From the IMG/VR virus record IMGVR_UViG_3300045776_000158, positions 1 through 21,602 of that record: DNA of 21,602 nucleotides; one strand, given 5' to 3'. Below, one piece after another: positions 1,893 to 21,312 of the stretch. A program made the position numbers and the translations under genes. Within the stretch, counting starts at the first letter, position 1, and every line of letters begins with the position of its first letter. This DNA is from a virus. The notes under the pieces were generated by a model, which worked only from the letters and a program-made list of their open reading frames with translations, was not told the DNA's origin and ran no database searches.

Positions 1893-3653
1893 CTATGTTG
1901 TTGTCACGGTCACTGTGGCCGAAGGCGTTTGCCCCCAACTATTGCCCGCGAGCACCTGAAAATCATATTCGGTCACTGGTTGCAAGCCTGAAACACCGAT
2001 ACTGTAAGATGATGCTGCTGTAGCCGGGTTAACTACATTTTTGAATGTGGTATAAGATGTTTTTTGTGCACCAGCGTAGGTCAGTAAGCCATAATTATTA
2101 GCATCGTTGGTCGGGTCATTACCGCTGTCTTGATAGTTGTACCAGAATATCGGTCCGGCCCACGCTGTGGCCCCGAGCAAAGAATATATCAGTGACACTG
2201 ACTGCGATTGAAGCACTAACGTTCCGTCAGCCGGAACGCTCGCGGCAGTCGGCATGCCAAATTCAGTACACCAAATTGGTTTAGCGCTATCACCGTTGGC
2301 GATCATCAGTGAACGGAATGATGGATTGCTGGTTGCCAGTTGCTGATAAGCCCCTCCGGAACTGCCCGGCGGCACCTGCGGGGATTCCCCATAGACATAG
2401 GGCTGTGCACCAACCCCATCCATATAACCGGCAGCACCGGCTGCATACATGGAGGCCAGAAACTGCTCTGGCGTGCTCTGAGCCAAACCTGCGCTTAATA
2501 CAAACGATTGAGTATCCACTGCATGAATAGCAGTATAAGCAGGTTGCAATAAGGCTACATACTGCGCTCCGGTAGCCCCGGCGGTCCCGCCCCAGAATTT
2601 GGCGATGTTGGGTTTACTCCAGATTTCCCAAACATGCACGCCTTGTGGGGCGTAGCGTCGGGCCAAAGCTGCGCAGAAGGTGGTGAAGGATGCACTGTTC
2701 GTCGGCGGTCCAAGCGCATTCGGGCCTGCCCATGGGGCACAATAAGCGATCATCCCCAGAATCTGTAATCCACCGTTCAAAAGAGCAGTTACTACTGGAT
2801 CAATGCCGCTGTAATCGTATGCTGTAGGACCTGTGGCCTGGATTGATGCCCAGTCGAAAGGTAGTCTGACCCAGAGAACACCTAGATTCTGTAATCCGGC
2901 GACAATTGTGGCAAGTTGAGCCGTGGAATATCCATACCAACTAAGGTCACCGTTCATCGCCTTGACTGCGCCAATATTGCTATAACCTGCTTTGGCAGGT
3001 GCAGAAATTGCCGGACCTGTGTTATTCCACGTTGTAGATGTAGAAATGTCCATGGTACTAAAACCAAGCGGCGGCGTGTAGTTCCAAGAATTTGCTGCAA
3101 AATAGCCAGCAGCATTGTCTGATGCTTGGTACAACACCACTGACGGCACTACTGCATATGCATTTACATTAGTCGGAATAGTTAAGCCACCAACTGCCGT
3201 TGCAGGATTCGCGGGGGCTGAATTATTCCAAGGCCCAGAGCCTACGCAACCCCAGATTAAATTACGATTTAAGTCGACAGCTATGCGCAGTATTTGCAGC
3301 GTAGAGTATGGTGACCATGTTGCGACGACTGTGCTGTTATTATAGACAGATCCATCATACTGCCAACCGATCTCATTGAGCGTAGAACCTAGTTCGCCTG
3401 TCGTAGATGATGTCGTGTTACCTATGCCAATGCGAATAGAGCTGCCATACTTAACATATATCTCAAAGTAATACTTTCCGAAGGAAAAACTATTGATACC
3501 GAATGTTTTGACAAATGTCGTTGTCCCTGTCATGGACGCTGTAAGATTGCTGTTTGACAGTGTGATCAGCGAATTTGTTTGAGCAGGATTCCACCCCTGT
3601 CCTGTTATAACAGGTGTTTGACGATATTGTGTTTGGTATAAAGTTCCACTCAT
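1893..3653 (-). CDS. SPRY plus TIM-barrel glycoside hydrolase-like tail protein, probable pseudoenzyme
   Basis: This protein has 586 residues. In order: a short Fn3-like strand (LYQTQYR, residues about 5-11), an SPRY-like beta-sandwich (about 27-200; KYYFEIYV, IRIGIGN, LIWGCVGSGPW), a clan-A TIM barrel like GH39/GH5 (about 215-535), and a C-terminal Fn3 half (VTEYDFQVLAGNSWG). In the barrel the strand-4 acid/base motif, usually WNEPN, reads WSKPN (Ser346, Lys347), so the acid/base Glu is missing. The strand-7 nucleophile motif CTEFG with Glu464 is kept. I infer a tail-attached polysaccharide-binding protein that has lost or altered hydrolysis. The ATG at 3653 gives an ATGA overlap with the upstream gene; a GTG at 3665 would add four residues. 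Membership of a specific GH family is not certain. Confidence 0.8.
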   Translation of the reverse strand: MSGTLYQTQYRQTPVITGQGWNPAQTNSLITLSNSNLTASMTGTTTFVKTFGINSFSFGKYYFEIYVKYGSSIRIGIGNTTSSTTGELGSTLNEIGWQYDGSVYNNSTVVATWSPYSTLQILRIAVDLNRNLIWGCVGSGPWNNSAPANPATAVGGLTIPTNVNAYAVVPSVVLYQASDNAAGYFAANSWNYTPPLGFSTMDISTSTTWNNTGPAISAPAKAGYSNIGAVKAMNGDLSWYGYSTAQLATIVAGLQNLGVLWVRLPFDWASIQATGPTAYDYSGIDPVVTALLNGGLQILGMIAYCAPWAGPNALGPPTNSASFTTFCAALARRYAPQGVHVWEIWSKPNIAKFWGGTAGATGAQYVALLQPAYTAIHAVDTQSFVLSAGLAQSTPEQFLASMYAAGAAGYMDGVGAQPYVYGESPQVPPGSSGGAYQQLATSNPSFRSLMIANGDSAKPIWCTEFGMPTAASVPADGTLVLQSQSVSLIYSLLGATAWAGPIFWYNYQDSGNDPTNDANNYGLLTYAGAQKTSYTTFKNVVNPATAASSYSIGVSGLQPVTEYDFQVLAGNSWGQTPSATVTVTTT

Positions 3654-5158
3654 GGAATTGCCCACGAAATAGTCAACGTATTATTTCCCACGTTGCTAGC
3701 TGCGACGTTGATGACAGCAGGCGGATTATACGCAGTATCCCACGATACAAAACCATTCGGCGGCGTATAAGACCAACTGGCTGATGAGAAGTGACCGATG
3801 CAATAGTCGCCCACAGCGTTAAGTGAACACGCAGGGCCGAGAGCCGTCGTTAAGACAGAAGCTGGTATCACGAGTCCACCGCCTGATGTCCCGTTTACCG
3901 GATTAGCTGTTGAGCTGCCACACCAACTTCCGTTCCCGACTCTCGCCCAAACGATGCTGTTAGGTAGATCCAAGGCAAAACATACTGTTGAGCCGGACCC
4001 GGCTGTTGGCCAAATGGCTGTCGAACTGGCATTCCATGTAAATGTCGCCGTAGTGCCTGTATCTGCTGTCTCTTGGAAACTCGTCGGCGGCGATGGAGCA
4101 GTATTAGATGACATGATGGATGTTGAATTGCATTCCACTACTCCAGTAGCGATCATCCATCCGAGTCCATTTGCATCAGACCCAACCCACTGATTAATTG
4201 CATTTCCAGCGCTGGTATTGCCGATACCAACGGAAATAGAAGCTGGATCAGAGCATGATATATAAACTTCCCAATAATATTTATTAGGTGTAGCAGTAAT
4301 TGTTGAATTTGTCCAGTTTAGTTGCACCGAACTTGCTGCCGGAGTAGCTGCGAGATTTTGAATTGACGCTGGCCCTAAGCTTACCAGTGCATTGGTATTA
4401 GCATATACAGAACTATTGCCCGCCGTTGTAGACGACGTAGCTGTCAGATTATTATTTGACAACGTAATATTAGTATACTTATGCGTCGAACTCCACTGTT
4501 GTGGGTGTATAACTGTAGCGTATGTTGACACGCTACCGATACTAGCGATGTTGGATGCAGCAGGCCAAACGATACTGTTTTGCGCATAACTACAACTCGT
4601 GATTGCTGCGCCTGCTATGGAGGCACCACTACGATAGGTAACTGTTGCTATAGGTAATACACTACCAGCTAAATTCATAGCTGATTGTATTAGTTCTAAA
4701 GCTGTAGCAATAGCAGTGGTATTTACGATACCATTGGATGTCGTGGAGCAGAGACTTTTAGTAGTTGCTGTGGGCGTAGCTGTTGCTGCGCCATTTATGC
4801 TAGAGCTTCCGAATTGTATGCTAGGGATAGCGTCAACAGATATGGAGCCTGACCCACGAACTAATACAATACTTTTTGATGTTGTAGTAGCCTTTGCTTT
4901 AACAGTAGAGGTTGAAGTTAGAGTGGCGCTGGTTAGCTGCGTAATAGCACCGAATCCAGGTGTCACAACTGTGACAATAGGTGATGTTACTGCTCCAACT
5001 ATATTAGCTGCAATTACTTGAAAATCATAAGAAACAGTGGGCGACAAACCGGTAACAAGCTCACTGTTACCAGTGATCGGTACTCCATAGGCATACCATT
5101 GAGTTGTGCCGCTCACACGGTATTGTAATTGATAAGTAACTACTGTAGTATCAGTCAT
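3650..5158 (-). CDS. Mosaic Fn3/SPRY tail fibre-type protein
   Basis: This 502-residue protein is made of broken modules. Residues about 6-65 are the back half of an Fn3 domain (YQLQYR, GLSPTVSYDFQVIAAN) with no front half. Residues about 70-225 are Ser/Thr/Ala-rich and low-complexity. The remainder is an SPRY-like domain (ITLSNNNLTAT, NKYYWEVYIS, ISVGIGNTSAG, NSIVWARVGNGSW, SYTPPNGFVSWD) that resembles the SPRY of the next protein but is interrupted twice by front halves of Fn3 domains (around residues 260-285 and 357-380). A third Fn3 front half ends the protein (NNTLTISWAIP). TAATG links it to the gp25-like gene and ATGA to the hydrolase-like gene. Fn3 and SPRY modules are common in adhesive tail proteins, so I infer a tail-surface or fibre role. 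The exact receptor cannot be told. Confidence 0.75.
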   Translation of the reverse strand: MTDTTVVTYQLQYRVSGTTQWYAYGVPITGNSELVTGLSPTVSYDFQVIAANIVGAVTSPIVTVVTPGFGAITQLTSATLTSTSTVKAKATTTSKSIVLVRGSGSISVDAIPSIQFGSSSINGAATATPTATTKSLCSTTSNGIVNTTAIATALELIQSAMNLAGSVLPIATVTYRSGASIAGAAITSCSYAQNSIVWPAASNIASIGSVSTYATVIHPQQWSSTHKYTNITLSNNNLTATSSTTAGNSSVYANTNALVSLGPASIQNLAATPAASSVQLNWTNSTITATPNKYYWEVYISCSDPASISVGIGNTSAGNAINQWVGSDANGLGWMIATGVVECNSTSIMSSNTAPSPPTSFQETADTGTTATFTWNASSTAIWPTAGSGSTVCFALDLPNSIVWARVGNGSWCGSSTANPVNGTSGGGLVIPASVLTTALGPACSLNAVGDYCIGHFSSASWSYTPPNGFVSWDTAYNPPAVINVAASNVGNNTLTISWAIP

Positions 5159-6432: not shown

Positions 6433-7478
6433 TACGATGGGATACCTGATGCTACATCCAGAGCACCTTTCGGAGCCGGGGCTGATGGATCAACTGATAA
6501 ACAAATCAAATCTGTATACCAATCATTTCCACGATTGTCACCTGTATGGTCCATACATAATATTTTATAAACACCGTCAGCATCGACAGGCGGATACATG
6601 TTAGAACTAACACCGCCTTGCGTAGCTGTTAATGACGGCGTCGGCTGTTGAATCGAGGAATTATTGATTTTTACCCGACCACCAACTCTAAAAGTTGCGT
6701 TTATCAATGAGCGGATTTTAATACCACTGCTGGTGATTTCTGGCATACCAATCATGCCGGTTTGACTATTCAACAGTATTGCACTACTATCTGTGGTTGC
6801 AGTCCGTGCCAGAAAGTTAATATTCCCACTTTCATCAATTTTCCAGGTGTTGTCGTGGGATGCCGCGATATCTCGCATGTAGTCACGGGTCATGCCCCAC
6901 ATGGCCCGACCACGAGGAGACTGCTCTGGTGGTGTGACTGGCACTACACCTGATTCTGCTAAATACGGTGGTGTGCCTAGTGTAACACCGTAGACGTCAC
7001 ATGTTCCGACAGCCGCTGCGGCTAATTGCGCCTGGGTATATCCGGCAGAAAGGGTTTTGTTGACGGTGCCGCTATTTAGTGGGTAATCCCATGCTGCGGC
7101 CCATATTTCCGTATACGTGTCAGTGGGGTTTTCACGGCCGGAACGCACGTATCTTACACTACCACTGAATAAAGTGGCAATTGCTCCGACATACCCGGCT
7201 TTGATGATAAGTTGGCCGTTTGCAGATGTCGGGTCACTACCTGCATTATCAATGGTTACACCAAGCTGCCCTAGTGTTCTTGCTGTTTTTGTAGATAAAT
7301 TATATATTTTAACGACACAAGTTGACGGTGTATGCAGCACTGTATGTTTAATAGTGAAAGTTATGTGTAAAGCTGCGCCATCTGGCGTATTTGGTGCAGC
7401 TAGTTCAGTACCTTGACCACTTTGATTTGCTGCAATGACAGATAGCTGTCGTTTCCAAAGTTGATTTGACCCGCTCAT
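6432..7478 (-). CDS. Baseplate hub protein (gp27/gpD-like)
   Basis: This 348-residue protein begins LWKRQLSVIAANQSG and has a first beta-rich domain with HITFTIKHTVLHTPSTCVVKIYNLS, the type of opening seen in phage hub proteins of this tail type (STxxVxIYNL then an IxAGY motif, here IIKAGYVGAIATLFSG). Later parts have repeated short strands and a segment WKIDESGNINFLARTA. The hub forms the ring to which the spike attaches and continues the tube channel. It follows the baseplate plug gene with an ATGA overlap and precedes the spike with TAATG, which is the standard hub-spike order. I cannot see any enzymatic domain in it. Confidence 0.88.
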   Translation of the reverse strand: MSGSNQLWKRQLSVIAANQSGQGTELAAPNTPDGAALHITFTIKHTVLHTPSTCVVKIYNLSTKTARTLGQLGVTIDNAGSDPTSANGQLIIKAGYVGAIATLFSGSVRYVRSGRENPTDTYTEIWAAAWDYPLNSGTVNKTLSAGYTQAQLAAAAVGTCDVYGVTLGTPPYLAESGVVPVTPPEQSPRGRAMWGMTRDYMRDIAASHDNTWKIDESGNINFLARTATTDSSAILLNSQTGMIGMPEITSSGIKIRSLINATFRVGGRVKINNSSIQQPTPSLTATQGGVSSNMYPPVDADGVYKILCMDHTGDNRGNDWYTDLICLSVDPSAPAPKGALDVASGIPS

Positions 7479-7789
7479 GTTGTTACAACAAAATATAATT
7501 GAGCATTGACGCTAAGATCGGTATAACCGATGGAAAGGTTATCTCCCGATAAGACTGCCATCAGTCCTCCGCCTAAACCCAAATAGCTATATTGTTGTAA
7601 TAGATTGATACCGATTTTTAGTGGAATACCGCACAATATAGGTAATCCATTTGAGTCACCTATGTCCAATATCCAGCCAGCTGTGGGATCATCACAAAAA
7701 ATCAATCGCATTGAGTAAGCGACGCCATTTAACGTAATGGTAAAGCTCTGTTGCGAGGCAATAAGCGGTATTTGATAGAAGTTACTCAT
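7475..7789 (-). CDS. Baseplate plug protein (DUF6983-like)
   Basis: This 104-residue, mostly beta protein begins MSNFYQIPLIASQQSFTITL and contains NGVAYSMRLIFCDDPTAGW, WILDIGDSNGLPILCGIPL and GINLLQQYSYLGLGGGL. These match the short baseplate-plug family found just before the hub in DUF3383-type tails; I know the family as a domain of unknown mechanism that lies at the tail-tube exit. The ATG at 7789 overlaps the upstream stop as TGATG; an alternative start five codons earlier (7804) would lie inside the previous gene and is less likely. Gene order (Dit-like, plug, hub, spike) supports the call. Confidence 0.85.
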   Translation of the reverse strand: MSNFYQIPLIASQQSFTITLNGVAYSMRLIFCDDPTAGWILDIGDSNGLPILCGIPLKIGINLLQQYSYLGLGGGLMAVLSGDNLSIGYTDLSVNAQLYFVVTT

Positions 7790-8415
7790 CACGAACCAAA
7801 CCAACTATTTAGTACACTACTATTTTGAGATGGAACTTGTGCAGGTGTTTGTGGTCCTGTTGCAGTTACTGCGTTGGATTGTTGTGGATTCGTCTGTGCG
7901 GATGCTGCTGGTACGCTAACAGATTGCGTTGCAACAATAATGACTTGGGTGCATACTGCTGTCACCATCAGAACATTTTCTGTTTCTTTATCGGTGGTAA
8001 TCAATAAAGAAGTCAACACCATGCTCGGATAATTTCGTTTACCGGTGGATAATCCAAAAACTTCGCCGGAAACCTGAAGTGCTAGTAATGAAGAATAAAT
8101 TTCATCAAGCTGCGGTGTAATAAATCCTTGGCCATTAACCAGACTGACAAGCCCATTGATAGCTCCGCTCAATGTGGGGGACGCGCTCCAACCCCAACGG
8201 ATCGTCACTTCAGTGGGCATCTTATAGGTATGGTCCGAAATCGACGCTGATTGTTCTACCGGATGCTGTGTCACCATCATTCTATCGAGATGGCGCTCTT
8301 CTATGGCGCAATCGGGAATAATCGATGCGATCGCCCGCTGTGTCGTGAACATGGCGGTTTGAACGAAGCTGGCGGCTCCTGCTAATGAAGCATATCCGAG
8401 CGATAACGCACTCAT
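7789..8415 (-). CDS. Dit-like baseplate protein
   Basis: This 208-residue protein matches the Dit-like N-terminal domain seen between tape measure and plug in this tail type: EERHLDRMMVTQHPVEQSAS, ISDHTYKMPTEVTIRWGWS, YSSLLALQVSGEVFGLSTGK and VLTSLLITTDKETENVLMV followed by TAVCTQVIIVAT. The C-terminal 40 or so residues are a Pro/Gln/Ser-rich low-complexity tail ending SWFGS. The protein probably links the tube to the baseplate hub. The ATG at 8415 has a GAGGTAG ribosome-binding site inside the end of the tape-measure gene, from which it is separated by four bases. Confidence 0.85.
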   Translation of the reverse strand: MSALSLGYASLAGAASFVQTAMFTTQRAIASIIPDCAIEERHLDRMMVTQHPVEQSASISDHTYKMPTEVTIRWGWSASPTLSGAINGLVSLVNGQGFITPQLDEIYSSLLALQVSGEVFGLSTGKRNYPSMVLTSLLITTDKETENVLMVTAVCTQVIIVATQSVSVPAASAQTNPQQSNAVTATGPQTPAQVPSQNSSVLNSWFGS

Positions 8416-8419
8416 ATCA

Positions 8420-10690
8420 CTACCTCACAACAGACTGCGCGTTCCGGATCGCTTCAAGATTCATCCGATCTTGGGACTGGATGATCATATCAGATACGGT
8501 GCGAGCATCGTGCACACCATTTACATTTAGGTGTGATTCAATGCGGATAGACGACGCAAGTGGAGCAGTCGTTGCGGGTGTGCGATGAATAAGGGATTGT
8601 CGTGCTGCTTCGATGGATGGGACATATTTCTGCGTTTCTGATGGTAATTGACTAGGATCACCAGTCTCAGCAAAGCGGTGTACACCATGACCCATAGGGC
8701 CAGCATTATAGGCAGCATCGGCTGCCTGATAGTTACCATGAAACGCTTCTAATAGTTGCTTAAAATAGCGTTCCCCAGCTTCGATGTTTTTATGAAAATC
8801 AAATAAATCCTTTCGGGTCAAGCCTAAACCAGCTCCTGTGGACGGCATAATCTGCATGGTACCGACAGCTCCGGCCGGGGATACATTGTCGTAACCACCG
8901 CCTTCAGTCATAGCTAATGCAACCATGTGATTTTCATCCAGGCCTTTTTCCTTGGCCTGACGCCGTATCTCTTGTTCCAGTTCAGGAGTCAATGATCGGC
9001 CAACATGCCCACCCGCCGCACTGACTGGACCGCGCTGCTGACTGTTTGATCCCATGCCAATCAGATTGGCAAAATAATCACTGATTTTATCCTGCATAGC
9101 GGATGTTTCAGTGCCCTCAGCCGAGGGTATTAGAGCCTTTTCAATTTCGCTGGCTATTTTACCGGTATTAGTGATCAATCTGTCAAAACTGTTCCGCATC
9201 CAGTTATCGGAACCTGTACTCCAGAAGTTGTCTGTAAGACTACGCCAAGCCTGCTGGATATTTGATGTTGAATTACCTGTCCTATTGCCCGATGCATCTA
9301 TCGACCCTTGTCGACGTTGATCTTCCTCACTTACGCCAATTTTACCGCCAGTTGCTTTATTTACTGTTTTATCGAGCCATGACATGCCCGGAATATTTCG
9401 ATCACCCCAGTCATTAATAGCATCTTTATGCTTAACAAGATATTTGATAGTCGCTATACCGGCTACAATAGCACCGATTGCCAGCGATAACGGACCAAGA
9501 GCAATTACAGCAGATGCTACAGTTGTGGCCAAAGAAACTAGCCAACTACCAGCAAAATATAAGGCAAAAGCTTCAGCTACGGTCTGCCACCCACCGATTA
9601 TTTCAACACCATACTGAATGTATTCCCAAAGAACTTTGAACCGTTCTCTGGCCCTTTCAATCTCCGGTTCCCACACTTCCCATGGAATGAGATGCTTGCC
9701 GCCTTCCTTCCATTTTTCATAATCTTCGATAAGCAGTAGTATACCGGCAGTCAACACAACAAACGGGTTAATCGCCAGTATTCGGTTTATTAGTGCAAAA
9801 CCGGCAGCAATCTCGCCGATTCGAATAATGAAATCTTTCGTCGGCTGATCAAGCTGATTGTACCAATCATATATCGTCTTAAAGAAATCGACGGCTCTGA
9901 CAATGCCTCTTAACAGAGCTTCCCCAGCAAACAAAGTGCTAGTGGCAACTTTTTCAATAAAATCACCAATTTCTTTTCGATTCAGCTTCAACAGTTCGGT
10001 GAAACGGACGAGATCAGCGCCTAGTCTCTGTTGCAGAACATCAGTGACTTTGGTTCGAATGGCATCGAAAACGTTCAATAATAATTTGAACTGGGTATTG
10101 AACACATGAGAACGCTTAGTAGCGTCATCCATGTTAATACCAAACAATTTGAATGTCTTATCGCTATCGTCCTGGATAAGTCGGAAGTCCTTATCCATCA
10201 GCGCCAGTGCAGTATGCCAGTCGATACCGAACTGCTCAGCCCTGATCCGCTGCATGTACTCCGGCAGCGTCCGCAGATGATCGCCAAAATCCTCCAGGAG
10301 TTTGGTTGGGTCTTGGTTGGGGTTTATGCCAAAAGACGCCAGCAGGCCACTGGCGGCTGGCGTCGACCCAAGGAAATTGCGGAATGCTTCCAACGACCCA
10401 CGGGCACCGGCCACCGACGACCCGAGTCGCTCCGCCGCGAAGCCAAAGGTGCGGATATTCTCAGCAGACGCTCCGGTCCGCTTTGACGCAAAGTACAAGT
10501 CTTCAAGCTGGTCGGCCATCCCAGCCACGCCCTTGACCACGAGCGCGGCAGCACCTTCTACTGCTGTAGCAAAAGCAGTAACTTCAGCAGTAGCTTTTAC
10601 AATCGAATTGGTGAATTTTGATCCACTGGATTCATCAATTTTCCAGCCGAGTTCGATGAGAAAACTTTTCAGGACAGCAGAATCGGTCAA
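8420..10690 (-). CDS. Tape measure protein with C-terminal SLT lytic transglycosylase domain
   Basis: This 756-residue protein has an N-terminal helical region, two hydrophobic stretches (about 287-322 and 374-418) typical of tape measures, and a lytic transglycosylase domain from about residue 575. The catalytic Glu is Glu596 in the TEGGG motif, followed by SPAGAVGTMQIMPSTGAGLG and AYNAGPMGHGV, which are the classical Goose-type lysozyme/SLT signatures. The tape measure fixes tail length; at roughly 1.5 angstrom per helical residue a tail of about 80-110 nm would be expected, depending on how much of the C-terminal part counts. The enzyme domain would open peptidoglycan during DNA entry. The start is a TTG at 10690, chosen because a GAGG ribosome-binding site lies seven bases upstream. 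It follows the tail chaperone genes, as is usual. Confidence 0.93.
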   Translation of the reverse strand: MTDSAVLKSFLIELGWKIDESSGSKFTNSIVKATAEVTAFATAVEGAAALVVKGVAGMADQLEDLYFASKRTGASAENIRTFGFAAERLGSSVAGARGSLEAFRNFLGSTPAASGLLASFGINPNQDPTKLLEDFGDHLRTLPEYMQRIRAEQFGIDWHTALALMDKDFRLIQDDSDKTFKLFGINMDDATKRSHVFNTQFKLLLNVFDAIRTKVTDVLQQRLGADLVRFTELLKLNRKEIGDFIEKVATSTLFAGEALLRGIVRAVDFFKTIYDWYNQLDQPTKDFIIRIGEIAAGFALINRILAINPFVVLTAGILLLIEDYEKWKEGGKHLIPWEVWEPEIERARERFKVLWEYIQYGVEIIGGWQTVAEAFALYFAGSWLVSLATTVASAVIALGPLSLAIGAIVAGIATIKYLVKHKDAINDWGDRNIPGMSWLDKTVNKATGGKIGVSEEDQRRQGSIDASGNRTGNSTSNIQQAWRSLTDNFWSTGSDNWMRNSFDRLITNTGKIASEIEKALIPSAEGTETSAMQDKISDYFANLIGMGSNSQQRGPVSAAGGHVGRSLTPELEQEIRRQAKEKGLDENHMVALAMTEGGGYDNVSPAGAVGTMQIMPSTGAGLGLTRKDLFDFHKNIEAGERYFKQLLEAFHGNYQAADAAYNAGPMGHGVHRFAETGDPSQLPSETQKYVPSIEAARQSLIHRTPATTAPLASSIRIESHLNVNGVHDARTVSDMIIQSQDRMNLEAIRNAQSVVR

Positions 10691-16765: not shown

Positions 16766-17253
16766 ATAATACGTCCATCTTCAAGACCAGAGCTTTCACC
16801 ACCCATACGTTCGCGTAGGTTTGTCAAATTCTGCCGATTAACATTCACAGCAGCTTCATTCATAAGGTGCTTTTCAACTGCATCATTAATACGTTGCTGA
16901 CGTATCTTGCGTTGCTGATCTTCGGCAAATTTCAATGTCCCAGGTTGATCCGTCACGATCGGCGGGTTATCAGTATGTGCCAGTAGATACCCGTGCTTAG
17001 CGTCTTCCTGAGACACATCATAATAGCCCTCTTCACCACAGTTCGATCCTTTCGGATCGAACAATGACGTAGAGTGGTTATCACGGTTCAAGATGAACCG
17101 TTTAACAATCCTAACCCGCACCAACGCTGCGGGAGACTGCTCCCCCGCTTTGATGACATGAGCATCGACAGGCAGGACCCTGAATCCCGAAGGAGCATCA
17201 ACTTCTGTGCCAACAGCGGCTATATTGTCTTCTTTGGGCTTACCCACCTTCAT
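16762..17253 (-). CDS. Hypothetical protein, 163 residues
   Basis: I do not recognise this family. The N-terminal half is beta-like with short strands (PSGFRVLPVDAHVIKAG, PAALVRVRIVKRFILNRDN) and a Gly/Asp-rich loop (FDPKGSNCGEEGYYDVSQED). The C-terminal half is a charged helix (FAEDQQRKIRQQRINDAVEK). It lies between the GT2 gene and the small membrane-protein genes and overlaps the former by 14 bases; the overlap supplies a GGAG ribosome-binding site for the ATG at 17253. It may be a minor head or connector-associated protein, but this is only a guess from its position. Confidence 0.6.
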   Translation of the reverse strand: MKVGKPKEDNIAAVGTEVDAPSGFRVLPVDAHVIKAGEQSPAALVRVRIVKRFILNRDNHSTSLFDPKGSNCGEEGYYDVSQEDAKHGYLLAHTDNPPIVTDQPGTLKFAEDQQRKIRQQRINDAVEKHLMNEAAVNVNRQNLTNLRERMGGESSGLEDGRII

Positions 17254-18307
17254 TCTCCATCAATCTTACATTTTCTCTTAGACGTGCATCGTTCGGATTG
17301 AATGCTAAAGCACGCTTGGCAAACTCCAGTGCCGGTCCGCGCTGACCCAGATTGTATAGCGCTACTGATGCTAGATCGAAAGGCCCTTCTTCGCGGGCAT
17401 AGCGCTCACTGATGTAGTTAGGTTCAGAAGGCAACGAAGCCGCTTTACCACAAAAATGGACTACTCCGGCCCACTCCTTCTGACGAAGCAAAAAGTTTGC
17501 TAAATCAATAAGGGACTCTCGTGATTGAGAATCTTCTAGAGTAGCCAGGACGTAAGAGTTGTAAGCGGGACCGATGGCCTGCAAATTTTCATGACATTTA
17601 GCTATATAACGGAAAGAGGACGCCCGTTCCGCAAGCCATGTCGATGTTGACAACTGAAGATGACGATAGAATTGTTCTATAGCCTCTTTATACTCTTTGT
17701 TATAGTAAAGTTCTCGCGCATAATAATGCGCATAGCGATCATTAAGTGGTTCTTCTTCGATCGCAGTATGAAGTAGCGATAGGTAGTCACTTCTTTTTTC
17801 GGACGAATCGGGGCGATGCTCGATGAGTGTGCTGTCACACACTGCAATTACTTCCGGTACTGTGGGGACTAAAGTTTCGTGAGCCGGACCGCGCCACCGG
17901 TGCGTGAACCGTCCACTGATTTTATCAGCATAAAATACGGTATCGGGGTGATCTGGGCTAAGCCATGAACAAGTATATAGATACTTGAGACGTGTTGTAT
18001 CAGACTTCCAGACTGCCTCGATTTTCGAGCGCCATCCCGGTGTCAGCACCTCATCAGCATCCACCTGTATTGCAATATCAATACTATCATCCAGGCTAAA
18101 CAACGCCATATTTTTTGCATCATCGAACCGCCACGGCTTGATCAGTGCCGTGCGTACATCCACTGTCAGATCACGTAAAATATCGATGGTCCGATCGGTC
18201 GATCCCGTATCAATTACCAACAACTGATCAGCATCTTTGGCTGCTGTCACCCAGCGCTCGACAAACTGTTCCTCGTTCAATGCACAGGTGTATACGGCAA
18301 TTTTCAT
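17240..18307 (-). CDS. Glycosyltransferase family 2 with C-terminal TPR-like repeats
   Basis: This 355-residue protein starts [20 protein letters not shown] and carries [16 protein letters not shown] (residues 29-44) and VDADEVL (DxD-type metal and nucleotide-sugar motif, Asp83/Asp85), which define a GT2 enzyme (GT-A fold). From about residue 190 onward there are helical repeats ([40 protein letters not shown]) that look like TPRs, often used to bind protein acceptors. The gene directly follows the collagen-like fibre (ATGA overlap). I infer that it may add sugar to that fibre or another virion protein; alteration of host glycans is the alternative. Confidence 0.85.
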
Positions 18308-21300
18308 GATAACAGCTTTACTTTCAATGCTTCGACTTCAGCGGTCAACTCTTGCACCGCTTTCCATAGCACAGCCGTCATTTGATTTAAGCTATAAGAT
18401 TCATTGTCGTCCGGATTAGTCGGTTTCTGGTAACCGCCGAAGTCCAGGCCGTGTTTGGCCATAACATCCCCGATTTCGGTAGCACTAAAGCCAAAATGGG
18501 TACGACGGCCAGCACGCGGGGTAAACGCGATGGTTGGAATCTCTACATCTTCATAAACAAGTTCATGATGAATTTTTGGCACAGACTCCAGAGTCCCGTC
18601 GGGTGCCACCATTTTAAAGCGGTCCGGAGCATCATGGTGATACCCTGGCATGCCGTCTTTTTCATGTACAACATGACGTTTAAATTTAAACGTATTATGG
18701 GTTTCCGTATTTCTTGCAAAATAGGCTTTATCATCGTTACCGAAAGTGACCCCATTGACCTCTTGCGTGGACTCTTCAGTGGCCGGGCGACTTTCGATTC
18801 GAGTTGTAGAAACCCTGTCATGCGATAGCTTGTTTTTAAAAGTAATTGGATTCAATTCTTTTACAATATTAAGCATTCCGGCCGCTATTGGTTGAATATC
18901 AGTCTTGACTCTTGGGTCTGATACAACAGCAAACTGTGTTGCATACATGTATTTATAATAATTCGATGGTCCACCCAGTTGATAGGCGTTTGATGCCCCA
19001 GGCAATATGTTGGTGTAATGCAGTATGTTTACAGCATACTGACCGATGATGCGATTAAGCGATGTATCACAATAATCATAAGCAGCACCAGCAGCACCAG
19101 CCCACACAACAGAAGCGCTGTTAGGCCCTAACGGCAACTGAATCGCTGCATTTGCGTATGTACCGTTCAGATACAGACCGTAAGAATGGGTATTGCTGCT
19201 TTGGAACGAACATGCGTTTGGTGAATAGTCACGGAAAGCTGTGTCCGTGCATCCGTTCACCATATAAGCATTATTCCATTGAGTAGAACGATTATAGCCA
19301 GCATCTACCCAACACGCTGCCAATGAATTGTAACTTGACGCTCCGGTAAAACTCATGCCAGTTGCGAGCGCATTACCTATGTTCCGTGTATTTGCACCAT
19401 TATTAAAATCAACTTCCATGCATTGAGAATTTTGACTCGAACTAAACCCGCTATTAAGAATCATCACCGGGTTCCAACCCCAAACATCTCCGGAACCTGA
19501 TGTCGCATTAATGCCAGTATATAAGCAAACTTTGTCACCCAAATTATTGATAGCACCAGAACCCTGATTACTGTTCAATCCAAACTGAACTAAGAATTCA
19601 CGTCCTGATCCACCTAGTACAGTATTACCTTGCACTACCATAGATGAATGCGTGTTATAGTTAGAAACGCCGCTACTATCCGGGTTACCAACAGGACTAG
19701 CCAGTATGCTCGGATTAGCATAAATAGTTATCCCAGTGGGTGTGATTGTTCCGCTCGCAACACCAGAAGGGCCGGTAGGGCCGACAGGGCCAGTAACTCC
19801 GGCAATGCCTTGAACACCGGCACTACCTTGCAGCCCCTGTGAACCGGCAGGACCAGTCGGTCCTGTAGGGCCGGTTGCACCTTTTGCACCAGCAGTGCCC
19901 GCAGTGCCGGTAGGTCCGGCAGGCCCGACAGGACCAGCTGCACCGGCAGCTCCTGTTGTACCGGCAGGACCAGCTGCACCGGCAGGGCCTTGCGATCCGG
20001 CAGATCCAGCTGCACCGGCAGGGCCGGTCGGCCCTTGCGATCCGGCGCCAGTCGGTCCAACCGCACCTTGCGATCCGCTTTGTCCGGTGGGGCCAGTCGG
20101 TCCTACAGGACCGGCAGATCCTTGCGATCCAGCAGGGCCAGTTGCACCGGCAGAGCCGACAACACCCTGCACACCAGCAGATCCAGCTGGGCCAGTTGGG
20201 CCAACAGATCCAGCACCGGCAGGGCCGGTCGGGCCAGTTGCACCCTGTGGGCCAAAATTACCGGGAATACCAGCAGGGCCGGTCGGGCCGGTCGGGCCGG
20301 GTGAAGATGGTCCGGTCGTACCAGCCGGGCCGGTCGGCCCTTGGGAGCCGACCGAACCAGCTACACCAGCTGATCCAGCCGGGCCGGGTGGCCCGTGCGG
20401 GCCAATCGCACCTTGCTGACCGATCGGGCCACCAGGGCCGGTCGGGCCAGTTACCCCTTGTGAAGGGCCGGTCGGGCCTGATGGGCCGGTTGCGCCAATG
20501 AATCCAGTAGGGCCGGTCGGCCCTACTACACCGGTACCGGTAGGGCCTGTGGGTCCGGTTGCGCCAGATGCGCCAGTCGGGCCAACCGGGCCAGTTACCC
20601 CTTGCGTGGGGCCGGTCGGGCCAATCGGGCCAGTGGGTCCGGTCGGGCCACCGGAAGGGCCGGTCGGGCCTGATGGGCCAGTTACCCCTACACCGGCCGG
20701 TCCGGTTGCTCCAGCCGGACCGGCAGAACCCAGTGGGCCAGTGGGTCCGGCAGAGCCAGTGGGTCCAGCCGGGCCAGTCGCTCCGGTTGGGCCAGCAGCC
20801 GGGCCTGTGGGGCCGACAGGGCCAGTGGGTCCGGTTGCTCCACCAGAAGGGCCGGTCGGACCTAATGCACCTGGAGTGCCGGTAACGCCCATCAGGCCCG
20901 ATGGGCCGGTTGATCCTACAGGGCCGGTCGATCCTACAGGGCCAGTGGGTCCGACAGGACCAGTCGGGCCAGTGGGGGCACCTGACGGTCCTGTTGGGCC
21001 AACAGGGCCAGTGGGTCCGCTCGACGGGCCAGTGGGTCCGACAGATCCAGTTGCTCCGATCGGACCGGTTGCTCCTACAGGGCCAGTCGGTCCTGCTATA
21101 GCATTATTCAGCACCCAGTTCGTTGTAGCTATTCTACTGGAGTTGTCTCCGATTCCTGGTGTCGGAGCTGTGGGTATACCTGTCAACGGAGCGCTGTACA
21201 GCGGCGCATAAGTAAGCGCTGCCGTCGCGGCAGGCAGCATCAAACCAAACATCTGGTTTAGCTGACTAGCCAGCAACTCGCTATCGGGAAGGAAGGTGAT

Positions 21301-21312
21301 AGTTCCGCTCAC
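18304..21312 (-). CDS. Collagen-like phage fibre with S74 chaperone domain
   Basis: This 1002-residue protein has a short N-terminal domain (about 1-73; [19 protein letters not shown] and [13 protein letters not shown], a motif common at the start of phage fibres), a collagen-like Gly-x-y region (about 74-519, mostly GPT/GPV/GPA triplets with some one-residue breaks), a beta-rich part (about 520-797), and an S74 peptidase/intramolecular chaperone domain (798-1002; [44 protein letters not shown]). The S74 domain drives trimerisation and may cut itself off near the Ser798-Asp motif. GTG is the start, with only a weak upstream ribosome-binding site. It is the first gene of the minus-strand run, upstream of the connector genes, so it could be a head or neck fibre as well as a tail fibre. 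Confidence 0.9.
19756..21093 (-). repeat. Collagen-type Gly-x-y coding repeat block
   Basis: About 1.3 kb (446 codons) of short degenerate units on the plus strand such as GGGCCGGTC, GGGCCAGTC and GGTCCGACAG encode about 146 Gly-x-y triplets. The block is visibly richer in G+C than the genes around it and favours Pro, Thr, Val and Ala. Breaks of one residue occur (for example GPSSGPTG and GPTGTGVVG), which would bend a triple helix. Repeated DNA of this kind may change length by recombination or slippage. Confidence 0.9.

Follow-up and report, generated by a model that had tools for sequence, protein, structure and literature searches.

A degenerate glycosidase barrel in a phage tail protein

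A 586-amino-acid product of the tail operon of a contractile-tailed phage harbours a GH39/PslG-like TIM barrel in which the Asn-Glu acid/base pair and the strand-6 His have been replaced. Sequence comparison gives good support for classical catalysis having been lost, and the barrel is best read as a catalytically dead pseudoglycosidase that probably serves as a glycan-binding module of the tail (probability roughly 0.6). The window analysed here is the whole 21,602-nucleotide stretch of the IMG/VR record IMGVR_UViG_3300045776_000158, which represents one metagenomic contig.

The protein is encoded on the minus strand (3653-1896). Its ORF begins at an ATG at position 3653 that overlaps the stop of the preceding gene (ATGA) and that is also the start used by the orthologues of two sibling phages, L110 and L111 (equivalent MSG); an alternative GTG start is possible four codons upstream. 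Three domains were delineated, in the following order: (i) a SPRY-like N-terminal domain (residues 1-220; 2994..3653, minus strand; phrog_10080, E 1.9e-14), which is 56 and 44% identical to that of L110 and L111, respectively; (ii) the GH39/PslG-like TIM barrel, for which residues 216-540 were used in searching (2034..3008, minus strand; phmmer and Foldseek matches to PslG); (iii) a C-terminal fn3-like domain (1896..2033, minus strand), whose Pfam fn3 match, best over residues 531-583, is under the gathering cut-off, and whose residues 551-586 are ~67% identical to the L110 orthologue. The frame stays open throughout the barrel, with no break across the 586 codons. The gene immediately upstream (3653-5158) encodes a related SPRY-like plus fn3-like architecture, parts of which are ~37% identical to the 586-residue protein, and the resemblance suggests an old duplication of an adhesin-like protein.

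Family membership and predicted fold

The best match in both sequence and fold is PslG, a GH39 endoglycosidase of Pseudomonas aeruginosa (PDB 5bx9, 4zn2 and 9g17). In a phmmer comparison (E 1.1e-14), SKPN of the window protein was aligned to the acid/base NEPN (within WNEPN) of PslG and CTEFG to its nucleophile motif TEWG. The catalytic residues of PslG are E165 and E276 (PMC6813494); Lys347 of the window protein aligns with the former and Glu464 with the latter. The structure prediction that the first-pass annotation had proposed was made with AlphaFold2 from a 55-row alignment and returned a confident barrel over residues ~231-545 except for a few loops; the C-terminus and a large part of the N-terminal domain were modelled with low confidence. 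Foldseek ranked PslG (E 3.9e-17) and GH39 enzymes top in PDB, and phage proteins annotated as GH5 first in a viral library. At threshold, no Pfam GH family matched the window domain, yet the five intact homologues that were scanned do match GH families.

Measured against clan GH-A and family GH39, the protein thus has the TIM-barrel fold, family-level sequence similarity and the nucleophile Glu at the end of strand 7 (E464), but neither the Asn-Glu pair at the end of strand 4 nor the strand-6 His (HPY). It shares with PslG the barrel and a nucleophile Glu in the same motif, and differs in that E165 and its preceding Asn correspond to Lys and Ser, and that Gln417 stands where the aligned homologues have an invariant His. 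Unlike PslG, moreover, it is a phage tail-operon product equipped with SPRY-like and fn3-like domains.

Three replacements in the catalytic pocket

The first-pass annotation had reported WEIWSKPN where relatives have WEIWNEPN, and both the codon reading and the alignment to PslG bear this out, with the codons of Ser, Lys and Glu464 exactly where it had placed them. On the minus strand, the motif reads Trp342 (TGG, 2628-2630), Glu343 (GAA, 2625-2627), Ile344 (ATC, 2622-2624) and Trp345 (TGG, 2619-2621), followed by Ser346 (AGT, 2616-2618) and Lys347 (AAA, 2613-2615), which together replace the Asn-Glu acid/base pair (2613..2618), and is closed by Pro348 (CCC) and Asn349 (AAC). Its further point that each change is one transition away from the consensus codon is arithmetically correct when AAT and GAA are taken as the consensus codons. 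The nucleophile Glu464 (GAA, 2262..2264, minus strand) is intact within CTEFG, as had also been noted. A third pocket loss had escaped that annotation: Gln417 (CAG, 2403..2405, minus strand) replaces the invariant strand-6 His, turning HPY into QPY.

Eight residues of the GH5 pocket are strictly conserved, namely Arg, His, Asn, Glu, His, Tyr, Glu and Trp (PMC3978015), and the three changed positions (346, 347 and 417) correspond to members of this set. The first His has no counterpart in the strand-3 region of the homologues aligned here; of the remaining seven, the window protein retains four (Arg263, Tyr419, Glu464 and Trp504), and three are gone from it: Asn, the acid/base Glu and the second His. 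The near-invariant columns related to the fold (Trp268, Asp285, Trp342, Asp412, Gly466 and Gly522) are all intact. By sequence alignment, the sole evident candidate for a displaced acid is Glu423 (2385..2387, minus strand), in the loop after strand 6, a position at which only 15% of homologues have an acidic residue.

Conservation among homologues

The homologue alignment called for by the first-pass annotation was made with two sets of sequences. The first was mostly chosen by WE[IL]WNEP-type patterns and is thus biased for conservation of the acid/base Glu: this Glu was present in 108 of 108 aligned, mostly motif-selected homologues, as was the strand-6 His, whose position lies outside the selection motif. 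Because most sequences had been selected by WE[IL]WNEP, the figures of 104 and 108 intact ones were rejected as an unbiased estimate and replaced by a second set, which was gathered by protein and profile comparison plus patterns that omit the acid/base motif and permit His or Gln at 417, and which comprised 51 alignable homologues after copies of first-set sequences were removed. Among these 51 non-motif-selected homologues, the Glu and the His were each found in 51, and the Asn and the nucleophile each in 50. Five viral contigs among the non-motif-selected sequences (L167, L169, L170, L171 and L172) all retain NE[PVA]N and HPY.

Among the fully invariant columns, the window protein differs at N346, E347 and H417 alone. 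With column 231 left out, 11 of 14 near-invariant columns are kept, and all three that changed belong to the catalytic pocket (about 0.03 by a post hoc hypergeometric estimate in which five of the 14 columns were counted as pocket). The Gly-to-Lys departure at column 231 was dropped as alignment-dependent, as Gly228 meets the conserved Gly in another alignment. Similarly, an apparent Lys at the nucleophile position of two homologues (L010 and L019) was an artefact of gapped alignment and shows no real loss. One homologue from the genome of an actinobacterial sample (L144) keeps WNEPN and has MTAVGA at the nucleophile, which possibly reflects an independent inactivation within this family.

Neither the motif search nor the homologue sets examined yielded a relative with the Ser-Lys-Gln pocket changes. 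A search of viral contigs for W-E-x-W-[ST]-K-P-N returned a single match and no true relative with an altered motif, the match being a chance one in a phage portal-like protein; scanning the viral contigs at the protein level with the whole protein and with the barrel found no close relative.

Evolutionary origin of the loss

In a tree of 129 rows, which counts copies of a few loci twice, the window protein falls within a supported clade of 57 rows, on a long end branch (0.87) and with no close relative. Wherever these positions are present in the other clade members, both the acid/base Glu and the His are retained. This nesting among intact sequences marks the loss of the pocket residues as derived. 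The protein thus combines homology to glycosidases and loss of catalytic residues with descent from ancestors that were presumably active, which are among the features by which pseudoglycosidases are recognized.

An exchangeable module beside the baseplate genes

The protein is encoded close after the baseplate genes, with those for sheath (phrog_205), baseplate hub (phrog_196) and baseplate wedge (phrog_120) lying upstream. A scan with the sheath located three sibling contigs, L110 and L111 among them; L130 is the contig of L111. In L110 (sheath 82% identical), the orthologue has only 260 amino acids, with the SPRY-like domain directly joined to the fn3-like one, so that residues ~220-550 of the window protein are without counterpart. 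The orthologue of L111/L130 (sheath 75% identical) has both flanking domains, SPRY-like and fn3-like, and after them a GH16 domain (E 4.2e-14) whose EIDIFE motif is apparently intact. Since the barrel is absent from one sibling and GH16 is found instead in the other, the locus exchanges carbohydrate-active modules, and the barrel is one such exchangeable module of the tail protein. The GC content of the barrel region reaches 0.57 versus 0.41-0.48 in its flanks; comparable swings occur elsewhere in the window, and the rise is for this reason weak evidence of acquisition. Position in the tail operon beside baseplate genes and module exchange among related phages are both traits of receptor-binding proteins.

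Intact GH39/GH5-like barrels of the same family occur in other phage proteins, some of which are virion proteins: the tail fibre of L170, a protein of L169, the 'xylanase' of Caulobacter phage Cr30 and GH5 proteins in BFVD. Those of L169, L170 and Cr30 retain the Asn-Glu pair and the His, unlike the window protein; in L170 the intact barrel lies within a tail-fibre-like protein bearing collagen-like repeats.

Several neighbouring genes were also recorded. In L130, positions 6827-9184 encode a protein that opens with a pro-kumamolisin activation domain (S53 peptidase-like); its gene comes next after that of the GH16-bearing tail protein and precedes the glycosyltransferase-like gene. In the window, two glycosyltransferase-like genes lie inside the structural gene cluster: a GT9-like gene (712-1938; weak Pfam match) with counterparts in L110 and L111/L130, and a GT2 gene with TPR (17240-18307; phrog_13126) with counterparts in L111 and L112. 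Window positions 18304-21312 encode a 1002-residue protein that resembles a tail fibre; it contains a long collagen-like stretch of Gly-Pro-Thr repeats, and its C-terminus matches tail spike families. Both glycosyltransferase-like genes might modify this collagen-like fibre or other virion parts.

A proposed shift from depolymerase to binding module

In the proposed scheme, a degenerate clan-A glycosidase of the GH39/PslG type, placed between the SPRY-like and fn3-like domains of a protein encoded shortly after the baseplate genes, would have lost retaining catalysis with the replacement of Asn, the acid/base Glu and the strand-6 His. By homology, Lys347 would be placed next to Glu464, with which it probably pairs; such a pair would neutralise the nucleophile as well. 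The retained cleft would then most likely bind a host surface or capsular polysaccharide without cutting it, and the protein would serve as a tail adhesin. Sugar binding by the barrel is putative, as is a receptor-binding role, which is plausible and in line with the location in the tail operon and with the exchange of modules among siblings. The first-pass annotation had proposed a sugar-binding pseudoenzyme turned into a receptor-binding part; the pseudoenzyme half of this proposal is strengthened by the loss of His417, by the catalytic role of the motif in PslG and by the derived state of the loss, and the receptor-binding half would fit this context. A more specific version, offered tentatively and with somewhat less than even confidence, is that a Lys-Glu pair in place of the carboxylate pair converted a depolymerase module into a non-cutting receptor-binding one, so that across related phages the locus would span no module, a cutting GH16 enzyme and a binding-only module.

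Alternatively, and as the main rival reading, the domain may simply be decaying, as an acquired enzyme module that is now functionless and whose catalysis drifted away when the phage no longer needed cutting. This reading draws on the fact that L110 manages without the domain and that the altered pocket is shared by no relative and so bears no sign of maintenance; it nevertheless appears less likely, as drift should also have hit fold residues, yet the frame is open across the domain and, column 231 aside, the near-invariant columns that changed all belong to the pocket. Still less probable is the other option raised by the first-pass annotation, that of an active enzyme with a changed mechanism, in which Glu464 attacks and protonation is supplied by a displaced acid (Glu423) or an outside donor, or is made dispensable by an activated substrate. 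Myrosinases function without the acid/base Glu, and the retained nucleophile, Arg263, Tyr419 and Trp504, together with the location of Glu423 just past strand 6, would suit such an enzyme; but the pocket Asn and His are gone too, a Lys adjacent to the nucleophile would neutralise it, and no homologue examined has such a design. A sequencing or assembly error, which the single contig and the adjacency of two of the changes might suggest, is highly improbable given three in-frame substitutions, one of them ~200 bases away from the other two, that all fall on invariant catalytic positions and leave the frame unbroken.

A dead, glycan-binding barrel would have precedents. Pseudoglycosidases such as YKL-39, klotho and CyRPA act as lectins or receptors in which a glycosidase fold has lost catalysis and binds glycans or other ligands (PMC7828330); these belong to the eukaryotic GH18, GH1 and GH33 lineages, whereas the window barrel is GH39-like, lies in a phage tail protein and is a putative binder. 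Endo-NF, the GH58 endosialidase of E. coli K1 phages, still binds its polysaccharide in inactivated form, with a KD of 191 nM (PMC7828330); that enzyme, of another GH family, was inactivated in the laboratory, whereas the loss in the window is natural. The literature searched, with incomplete coverage, contained no description of a GH39-like pseudoenzyme of a phage tail; pseudoglycosidases are already known as a kind, with none found reported for this family or position.

An open issue in the evolution of receptor-binding proteins is how phages switch between capsule cleavage and mere attachment. Here, one phage member with three pocket replacements stands amid almost uniformly intact hydrolases, and its siblings have at the same locus either no module or a different, motif-intact hydrolase, which provides three natural constructs for testing the switch. 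Such proteins could also be used as glycan probes.
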